The notes beneath the pieces were generated by a model. The model ran no database searches, was not told where the DNA came from, and saw only the letters and a list, made by a program, of their open reading frames with translations. The position numbers and the translations under genes were made by a program. Shown one piece after another: positions 39,555 to 42,117 of a DNA stretch of 64,000 nt; positions within the stretch are counted from its first letter, which is position 1; the number at the start of each line of letters is the position of its first letter. The stretch spans positions 3,658,001 to 3,722,000 of the forward strand of contig NC_017075.1 of NCBI RefSeq assembly GCF_000284255.1, in the 5' to 3' direction. The stretch comes from Rubrivivax gelatinosus IL144 (GTDB taxonomy: Bacteria > Pseudomonadota > Gammaproteobacteria > Burkholderiales > Burkholderiaceae_C).

Positions 39555-40517
39555 TCAGGCCGCCACCGGCACCAGGAAGTCGCGCCCGATGCCGGCGCCG
39601 AGGTCGTTGACGCGGTCCAGGAACTGCGTCAGGTAGGCGTGCAGCCCGGTGGCCAGGATCTCGTCGATGCGGCCGTACTGCAGGTCGGCCTGCAGCCGCC
39701 CGGCGCGGCGCAGGGTCTCGGCGCTCTGCTGGTTGGCCACCGGCTTCAGGTTGGCGACGACCTCGTTCATGCAGGCGGCCAGCGAACGCGGCATGTCCGG
39801 CCGCAGGATCAGCAGCTCGGCGACGAGTTCCGGGCGGATCACGTTGCGGTAGACCTTGCGGTAGATCTCGAAGCCGGAGACCGAACGCAGGATCGCGCTC
39901 CAGTGATAGAAGTCGACCTCCTGGGTCTCCTTGACGTTGCCGTTGCCGAAGTACTCCGACGACAGCGCGTGGAACTTCACGTCGAGCAGCCGCGCGGTGT
40001 TGTCGGCGCGTTCGAGGAAGGTGCCGACCCGCAGGAAGTGCATCGCCTCGTCCTGCAGCATCGTGCCGACGGTGACGCCGCGCGACAGGTGCGAGCGGTA
40101 CTTGACCCACTCGAAGACCATGCCGGGGTCGCGCTCGAAACGGCCTTCCTTCAGCAGGCGGTTGAACTCCAGCCAGGTCTGGTTCTGCGTCTCCCAGACC
40201 TCGGTGGTCAGCGCGCCGCGCACCGCACGCGCGTTCTCGCGCGCCGCGCGCAGGCAGCACAGGATGCTCGACGGGTTGGTCTCGTCGCGCACCATGAAGT
40301 CCATGACGTTGCGCGGCGTCAGCTCGCTGTACTTGCGCTGGAAGCTCCAGCTCAGCTCGCTGATCGACAGCAGCCCCTGCCAGCCCTGCTCCGCCATGTC
40401 CGCCGACTGCGGCAGCAGCGAGGTCTGGTAGTTGACGTCCAGCATGCGGGCGGTGTTTTCGGCCCGCTCCATGTAACGGGCCATCCAGAACAGATGATCC
40501 GCAGTCCTAGACAGCAT
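39555..40517 (-). CDS. alpha-E domain protein (stand-alone)
   Basis: 320 residues, all-helical alpha-E family (COG2307). It opens MLSRTADHLFWMARYMERA and contains FLRVGTFLERADNTARLLDVK, RSVSGFEIYRKVYR and FLDRVNDLGAGIGRDF. Alpha-E proteins always travel with circularly permuted ATP-grasp and transglutaminase genes in a predicted amide-bond-forming system of unknown product. GGAGG lies 5 nt before the ATG. Last gene of the operon. Its first 18 codons are unusually T- or A-ended (TCT AGG ACT GCG GAT CAT) compared with the near-copy just upstream. Confidence 0.93.
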   Translation of the reverse strand: MLSRTADHLFWMARYMERAENTARMLDVNYQTSLLPQSADMAEQGWQGLLSISELSWSFQRKYSELTPRNVMDFMVRDETNPSSILCCLRAARENARAVRGALTTEVWETQNQTWLEFNRLLKEGRFERDPGMVFEWVKYRSHLSRGVTVGTMLQDEAMHFLRVGTFLERADNTARLLDVKFHALSSEYFGNGNVKETQEVDFYHWSAILRSVSGFEIYRKVYRNVIRPELVAELLILRPDMPRSLAACMNEVVANLKPVANQQSAETLRRAGRLQADLQYGRIDEILATGLHAYLTQFLDRVNDLGAGIGRDFLVPVAA

Positions 40518-40662
40518 GGTGGTCCTCCATCAGGCCGAAAACCCCGCCGCGCGCTGCCGCGCGCCGCGGTATTTTGGCTTCGCCGCAGGCGCTTCGCGCC
40601 TGAACGGCGCGCTCCATGTAGCGGGCCATCCAGAACAGGTGGTCGGCGGTTCTCGACAGCAT
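40507..40662 (-). pseudogene. duplicated start of the alpha-E gene (remnant or short ORF)
   Basis: ATG 40662, with a strong AGGAGG 8-13 nt upstream and 18 nt after the ATP-grasp stop, encodes MLSRTADHLFWMARYMERA, identical to residues 1-19 of the alpha-E protein. It then runs into an unrelated GC-rich linker with a hairpin (CAGGCGC-GAA-GCGCCTG) and stops at 40507, overlapping the real gene's start in another frame (51 residues in all). The shared 57 nt differ at eight positions, all synonymous. Best read as the remnant of a paralogue or tandem duplication; a translated leader is possible. Confidence 0.75.
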
Positions 40663-40680
40663 CGTGCTCCCTCCTGCGTG

Positions 40681-42117
<1,437 letters not shown>

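Follow-up and report, generated by a model that had tools for sequence, protein, structure and literature searches.

A three-hairpin insert and duplicated gene start ahead of alpha-E and biotin carboxylase genes, with a leader frame that stops at the gene start

Tandem inversion duplications follow the order direct copy, inverted piece, direct copy. Among gene pairs, stop/start spacings of -4, -1, and -8 are enriched and coupling falls with distance (PMC12548453), and in a synthetic study in E. coli, a short nonsense upstream open reading frame (ORF) with an internal ribosome-binding site (RBS) boosted downstream translation up to 20-fold (PMC13255528). The REP/RAYT repeats fall into GTAG and CGTC tag classes (PMC3733652). 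Here, we describe a unit that precedes an alpha-E gene within a 64,000-nucleotide window of the Rubrivivax gelatinosus IL144 chromosome and that recurs at other genes. We consider it probable that the native start of the gene, displaced by an insert that brought a second start, persists as a translated relay ORF coupling the gene to its upstream neighbor. The anatomy of the junction, its recurrence, the constant leader frame and stop, the synonymous codons that make the stop, and compensatory changes in the hairpins support this reading.

The alpha-E junction and its relatives

The alpha-E gene is preceded by a 51-codon ORF whose N terminus, MLSRTADHLFWMARYMERA, is identical to alpha-E residues 1 to 19. 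Over these 57 nt, the copy and the gene start differ at eight sites, all of them synonymous third positions (8 synonymous versus 0 nonsynonymous changes); the two start codons lie 145 nt apart, and 18 nt separate the ATP-grasp stop from the leader start. The first-pass annotation had reported this repeat and both distances, and our count and measurements agree with it. Because the leader TAG falls inside alpha-E codons 3 and 4 (40509..40507, nt 9 to 11 of the gene), the leader ORF overlaps the real gene. In Pfam, the gene matches Alpha-E (PF04168; E = 1.6e-100), and the 51-aa leader ORF matches positions 1 to 20 of the same family (E = 1.2e-8). The parts of the junction are listed in Table 1.

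Table 1. Features of the alpha-E junction, in coordinates of the window
Feature	Coordinates	Strand	Remarks
ATP-grasp gene, circularly permuted (PF14403/PF04174)	40681..42117	(-)	upstream neighbor; Pfam CP_ATPgrasp_2/1
Leader ORF Shine-Dalgarno-like AGGAGG	40670..40675	(-)	read from sequence
Leader (bridging) ORF, 51 codons, TAG stop	40507..40662	(-)	stop position conserved across units
Copy of alpha-E codons 1-19 (putative displaced native start)	40606..40662	(-)	
88-nt linker: three-hairpin insert and second Shine-Dalgarno	40518..40605	(-)	
Hairpin A, CAGGCGC-GAA-GCGCCTG, 7 bp	40586..40602	(-)	compensatory changes in 2/7 pairs, 14 genomes
Hairpin B, GGC-GAA-GCC (GGCGAAGCC), 3 bp	40576..40584	(-)	core that varies least
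Hairpin C, long, GC	40533..40575	(-)	left arm 40559-40575, right arm 40533-40554
Alpha-E codons 18-23 (GGCCGAAAACACCGCC), right-arm match 15/16 nt	40449..40464	(-)	
Alpha-E Shine-Dalgarno-like GGAGG	40524..40528	(-)	read from sequence
Alpha-E gene, 320 aa, PF04168	39555..40517	(-)	TCTAGG at codons 3-4 is the leader stop source

A search of the linker against its own 5,043,253-bp genome, as the first-pass annotation had proposed, found one full-length copy (next best match, 34 nt, E = 0.0015), which rules out a high-copy repeat. When the window and 400 kb of the same chromosome were scanned for N-terminal duplications (≥9/12 aa within 50 to 400 nt), just two matches appeared, the alpha-E unit and a weak in-frame one with a spacing of 315 nt; with so few in 464 kb, the alpha-E duplication is not a product of chance. 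Scanning the same 464 kb for direct repeats in DNA gave five matches, among which no further element was recognized; three of the other four are spaced by a multiple of three. Nor was a further element recognized in 800 kb of genome G108, where four matches remained once in-frame, core-less spacings were dropped; these stretches excluded contigs C22, C42, and C59, which carry G108's own elements, so that the scan had no positive control.

For alpha-E, we searched 100 relatives at the protein level and 81 Rubrivivax genomes at the DNA level. This comparison of the junction among related genomes, another proposal of the first-pass annotation, placed the unit upstream of alpha-E in 14 of the 81, with a spacing of 145 nt in 12 (147 and 151 nt in the others) and a 51-codon leader stopping at +11 in 12 of the 14. 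G034 has two units in tandem ahead of alpha-E, and Caldimonas mangrovi (L224) has three, each of 151 nt. A covariance model (R1) built from the 14 alpha-E linkers, and including the first 12 nt of alpha-E, matched 14 of 299 family genomes at E ≤ 1e-4: our own, eight more at alpha-E, four at biotin carboxylase genes, and L280, which has no recognized duplication. Outside alpha-E, most well-scoring R1 matches lie where a biotin carboxylase gene begins (the one target tested is Biotin_carb_N in Pfam). The order there is a copy of about the first 11 codons, hairpins A, B, and C, a second Shine-Dalgarno sequence, and the intact gene.

A second model (R2), trained on 26 inserts, 25 of them from biotin carboxylase genes, contains no alpha-E sequences and matches the window insert with E = 2.5e-7, so the alpha-E and biotin carboxylase inserts look related; its training inserts came from alpha-E-based searches, making its independence incomplete, and E values from both models are rough. 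R2 matched 39 of 81 Rubrivivax genomes at E ≤ 1e-3, several weak matches being chance, and 68 of 399 family genomes in 44 of 141 family genera at E ≤ 1e-5. At the level of the order, 9 of 300 genomes matched, and five families other than this one account for 6 of the 9. Nearly all R2 matches that we read are biotin carboxylase starts, and many Burkholderiales carry the related insert there. By sequence comparison, the element is real and widespread.

Tandem units of equal or near-equal spacing occur at L029, L224, L319, and L433, the last consisting of five start units before a biotin carboxylase gene (G217:C12). At L433, the leaders can end one after another on the following unit's ATGTTTGA; the stop was computed for the first leader. 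Two more weakly scoring matches lie at other genes. That at L176 (R1 E = 2.3e-4, absent from the R2 matches) is at the 5' end of a gene without a Pfam family, which we take to resemble indolepyruvate oxidoreductase. That at L178 (R1 E = 9e-4, a member of the R2 training set) is antisense at the 3' end of what is, by motif, presumably a DNA ligase gene, and is flanked by a direct repeat of ~75 bp; if real, this case would tie the flanking duplication to the insert rather than to leader peptides. Alpha-E and biotin carboxylase targets thus share the same core, each with a direct repeat of its own target, a pattern that is weaker for L176 and L178. Since the insert arms are target derived, R1 and R2 favor known targets, and others may be missed.

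Weak R1 or R2 matches without flanking repeats (L166, L173, L174, L177, L180-L188, L316, L318, and L321-L324) were set aside as chance after reading. Against plasmid and phage collections, the biotin carboxylase unit gave no matches, and the alpha-E query matched five plasmids, just over a short part of the copied coding sequence.

Presence of the element is extremely patchy among sister genomes. On an alpha-E tree of 84 rows, which left out six duplicate or partial rows (one of them, L272, carrying the element), the 22 element rows need 18 changes, 13 of them forced by supported branches; shuffled labels need hardly more, 19.5 on average. In G050, which has no unit, the start equals the copy of our own genome (G000) at the first six of the eight differing sites and the G000 gene at the last two; over these few sites, it looks like the product of loss through repeat-repeat recombination. 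The same agreement bears on codon choice: the first-pass contrast between a gene start rich in T/A-ended codons and a copy written in preferred ones holds, but it is no sign of a foreign gene, because the copy matches this element-less sister at 6/8 sites and the TCT AGG pair is the leader stop. G009 has the linker end and TCTAG start as in its sister G043, without the copy. At L155, L160, L179, and L273, the leader's N terminus (MTFSKIL, MTFRKIP, MSFGGIL, and MSFSKIL, respectively) is unlike the gene's MF-type start. From the sister-genome pattern and these leaders, it seems that the second start came with the insert and that the leader is the native start, most simply by recombination between conserved gene heads.

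Leader stop, hairpins, and right arm

In all 102 units counted, the leader frame has its first stop within -25 to +20 nt of the gene start, compared to 8 and 16 of 102 for frames +1 and +2; these counts are not independent events, given the relatedness of many units through descent or recombination. Coupled pairs have the upstream stop within ~20 nt of the downstream start or overlapping it, and the leader stops are so placed, 56 of them at +8 and 17 at +11. Units were selected for a start codon and a stop-free run over the first 10 codons, the remaining frame being no criterion; 4 of 55 newly listed loci were excluded from the count, having fewer than 6/10 residues matching. Among 14 further readings outside the count (three of the four excluded loci and eleven others; L396 is the same place as L273), 13 fit the leader-stop rule. 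The excluded locus L431 has its leader stop at +1. The exception is L436 (G390:C1), with two tandem units, the last leader of which runs on into the gene in frame without meeting a stop; in-frame read-through at L436 is a possible N-terminal extension. Of the 58 loci from L395 to L452, 11 lacked an N-terminal copy in the automatic scan, and most of these were later read or counted, except L399 and L449. At the other end of the leader, an upstream ORF (≥70 open codons) ends -11 to +42 nt from the leader start (median, 12) in 88 of 99 units and is lacking in 11, a count inflated because ORFs in GC-rich DNA are often spurious.

The leader stop is supplied by synonymous codons: TCTAG in alpha-E and TTT in place of TTC in biotin carboxylases. 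Because Ser-Arg at codons 3 and 4 needs TCTAG for a stop at +11, and Phe at codon 2 needs TTT for a stop at +8, associations within units are true by construction. They follow from the genetic code both in alpha-E units (TCTAG with a +11 stop, 16/16 versus 0/8) and in biotin carboxylase units (TTT with a +8 stop, 56; TTC with the stop elsewhere, 19; TTT with the stop elsewhere, 1). L395 obtains its leader stop, a TAA at +11, from TTC and ACT.

The informative comparison is with genes lacking the element. Among pccA-type genes (28 starts placeable among 30 loci), TTT stands at codon 2 in 6/6 with the element versus 1/22 without it (21/22 have TTC), and in the copies codon 2 is TTC in 49 of 71 and TTT in 21. 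At alpha-E codons 3 and 4, TCTAG was found in 3 of 36 short-gap rows and in none of 24 named element-less loci outside the genus set (L212-L239, with duplicates and L224 dropped; gene starts only). On the alpha-E tree, 13 independent pairs differing in the element were compared over 200 pairings: TCTAG differed in the same direction in a mean of 7.6 pairs, in the opposite direction in 0.0, and not at all in 5.3 (median p 0.008, up to 0.07). TCTAG is present without a leader at L025, L047, and L015. We dropped the idea that it is a fossil in element-less genomes, since the long-gap ones have other bridging ORFs; L047, L015, and L025 are perhaps exceptions.

The GC-rich hairpins of the first-pass annotation are present, but the linker is no passive spacer: it is structured and carries compensatory changes. 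In the 14 alpha-E linkers, 92.2% of cells pair, and 11 cells are double changed compared to 3.3 in shuffles (0/500 as high; slid versions, 1 to 6); the number of pairs with a double change, three, all in hairpins A and B, is not unusual (179/500 shuffles). In this set, one of the three hairpin B pairs is compensatory, and in hairpin C no pair changes on both sides. We scored hairpins B and C in the 26 R2 sequences and found eight two-sided pairs (1/500 shuffles) and 26 cells compared to 10.0 (slid versions, 0 to 7 cells); all eight pairs lie in hairpin C, and the three hairpin B pairs are invariant. A simple search of the 102 units found hairpin A with ≥6 bp in 63 (41 different stems) and not in 39, and a B-like core in 86. 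As these covariations indicate, the linker hairpins are under structural constraint. A second pairing scheme, with a closing stem and a longer hairpin C, fit the alpha-E set more poorly. No Rfam family reached its gathering score in the window (40200-41000) or at 16 further loci; L424 (1362-1456) weakly matched mir-1304 on either strand without reaching the gathering score, probably through a chance palindrome.

Just 5' of the second Shine-Dalgarno sequence, the right arm of hairpin C reverse-complements the gene where the duplicated stretch ends. Where gene and copy differ, an automatic count over all compared columns gave 83 gene-like, 12 copy-like, and 17 neither; it took in flanking columns, those immediately beyond the copy, and four units of uncertain offset. 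A hand tally confined to columns inside both the arm and the copied stretch, which left out these four units as well as two tandem units in intermediate position, gave 29 gene-like, 0 copy-like, and 1 neither. The predicted duplex between arm and own gene in the window has an energy of -53.2, compared to -37.1 +- 3.6 for shuffled arms, and most units fall clearly below their shuffled values; L274, L029b, L158, and L175 are at or near them. Mean energies with the unit's own gene versus another gene of the same family are -45.2 versus -42.5 for alpha-E and -46.9 versus -43.6 for biotin carboxylases, and related genes of the same family often beat the own gene as partner. These relationships suggest either that arm and gene arrived as one unit or that they pair in RNA.

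At the alpha-E junction, bridging extends to other inserts. Our junction set comprises 49 rows, 13 with a gap of ≥80 nt and 36 shorter (two from other families, one place twice). All 13 long gaps are bridged by an ORF with its start 1 to 27 nt past the ATP-grasp stop and its end at +11, -2, or -16; the L029 gap is bridged through two successive units. In six (L004, L019, L027, L034, L035, and L037), the insert appears by eye to be unrelated to the linker, with weak R1 matches at L019 and L027 (E about 2e-4 and 2e-3); L004 carries a shorter start copy of its own. Of these six bridges, five end at +11 in TCTAG. That all 13 long-gap junctions are bridged suggests that the common rule is a bridge from the upstream stop to the alpha-E start, whatever the insert.

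Another GC-rich repeat (CCCCCAAG...GCTCGCTACCCCCC...GGGGGCC), also ORF bridged, lies at the alpha-E junction in L019, L027, L034, and L035. In L034-L037 (G020, G011, G004, and G047), alpha-E itself is split by an insert of ~60 to 130 nt near residues 184 to 197; the split gene is in frame in G020, G011, and G004, and the G047 frame ends after 219 codons. At L048 (G031:C147), alpha-E residues 289 to 320 are copied (81% identical) ~1.6 kb downstream, as if by an insertion-made 3' duplication.

A putative relay ORF and its alternatives

We propose that a three-hairpin insert entered after codon 19 together with a second gene start (Shine-Dalgarno sequence, ATG, and ~19 codons), leaving an intact gene 145 nt downstream. 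The old alpha-E start would not have died but would have become a bridging leader ORF. Ribosomes passing the ATP-grasp stop would restart 18 nt on, at the leader; leader translation would read through the hairpins and melt them; and ribosomes stopping at the TAG, beside the alpha-E Shine-Dalgarno sequence and ATG, would then reinitiate. We infer leader translation and reinitiation, with coupling as the selected function. This reading joins two options of the first-pass annotation, an old insertion-duplication and a translated leader ORF, that go together and are both favored by the many species in which the frame stays open up to a stop at the gene start. For the same reason, and because other genes carry the arrangement too, the leader does not look like a decoy.

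The right arm could instead belong to a regulatory attenuator, in which it would pair either with the left arm, as hairpin C, or with gene codons 18 to 24, the position of the leader ribosome choosing between them in response to a signal. The strong arm-gene duplexes of most units, the arm's adherence to the gene over the copy, the predicted arm-gene pairing (0.10 to 0.82 over 15 folded units), and the narrow target set, mostly biotin carboxylases and alpha-E, would all suit such a device. We nevertheless think it unlikely: other members of its family often outdo the own gene as a partner, four units have duplexes no better or hardly better than shuffled, presence varies greatly between sisters, and apparently unrelated inserts are bridged as well. 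In the same 15 units, predicted start access (0.12 to 0.69) is hardly altered by blocking the left arm; as a test of an RNA switch, folding gave no clear on/off difference.

The leader peptide itself could be functional, as a micropeptide or a nascent-chain sensor mimicking the N terminus, in favor of which pN/pS between copy and gene is low (0.086 for 24 alpha-E units and 0.108 for 21 biotin carboxylase units, omitting 6 units with noncollinear or cut starts). Between G000 and G024, moreover, the copies differ by 4 synonymous and 0 nonsynonymous changes. Low values would equally follow had the copy served as the real start before the insertion, or from copy-copy conversion; meanwhile, the accC-type peptide decays while frame and stop stay (L306, L314, L315, and L317), and the compensatory changes in hairpin A alter amino acids, which makes a functional peptide very improbable. 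We give still less credence to a neutral recent tandem duplication or a functionless leftover paralogue, the latter an option of the first-pass annotation that does not fit an arrangement recurring, with its frame kept, across many species and at other genes. Tandem units do exist, and G050 has the look of recombination loss between repeats. Neutral frames, however, would not stop at the gene start in every unit; the stop-forming codons and compensatory pairs are maintained; and the G000 and G024 linkers differ at only 1/88 sites (the gene's first 57 nt at 0). Absence from close relatives combined with random decay had been named as the mark of a neutral remnant: some sisters, such as G050, do lack the unit, but it is in frame wherever present.

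More tentatively, and with doubts that outweigh our confidence, the unit may represent a kind of chromosomal cassette, so far undescribed, that is specialized for gene starts: its three-hairpin core, bringing or creating a second RBS and start and an inverted copy of the target, would spread via conserved 5' ends of paralogues and across species and swap the start codon, the former start becoming a relay ORF whose stop the gene's own synonymous codons provide. In such a cassette, the helix between arm and gene may act as a translational throttle.

Comparison with known systems

Genes that survived insertion at their start, with many relay ORFs whose stop is precisely placed, would amount to a natural repeated experiment, and sister genomes with and without the unit make the needs of coupling (distance, overlap, and unfolding) testable. 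Start codons can apparently move while the protein stays unchanged, and the unit is a possible source of miscalled starts in annotated biotin carboxylase and alpha-E genes. A description of the arrangement was absent among the matches listed in full-text literature, subscription literature being mostly outside that scope; as far as our searches reach, it is undescribed.

Like tandem inversion duplications, the unit has a direct-inverted-direct order; unlike them, it is tiny, and its hairpin core is common to different target genes. It resembles REP/RAYT sequences, which are short GC-rich hairpins sometimes within genes (PMC3733652). It differs from them in having one full-length copy in this genome, three hairpins, a long flanking duplication, and a place at gene ends. 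In our own genome, the linker DNA, R1, and R2 each have one full-length match, and a GTAG or CGTC tag, on either strand and anywhere in the linker, occurs in 39 of 102 units (by eye, none in the window linker); the single copy and the lack of a constant tag rule out a REP-type repeat. Among the systems compared, the nearest intragenic small mobile sequences appear to be the enterobacterial RU-1/2/3 elements, which are ~100 to 170 bp long and provide open frames inside genes (PMC2759123). Those elements occupy many intergenic places and are fused into proteins, whereas our unit rebuilds the gene start and leaves a separate leader ORF.

In its layout, the unit is closest to termination-reinitiation coupling and bridging leader ORFs, in which the upstream ORF terminates on or slightly within the next start, beside an internal Shine-Dalgarno sequence (PMC12548453, PMC13255528). 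Judged by the positions of its stops and starts, it would work like a translationally coupled pair with -8, -11, or -4 overlaps. It departs from known coupling in that its upstream ORF is a duplicate of the head of the gene it precedes, comes with the insert, and recurs through repeated gain and loss.
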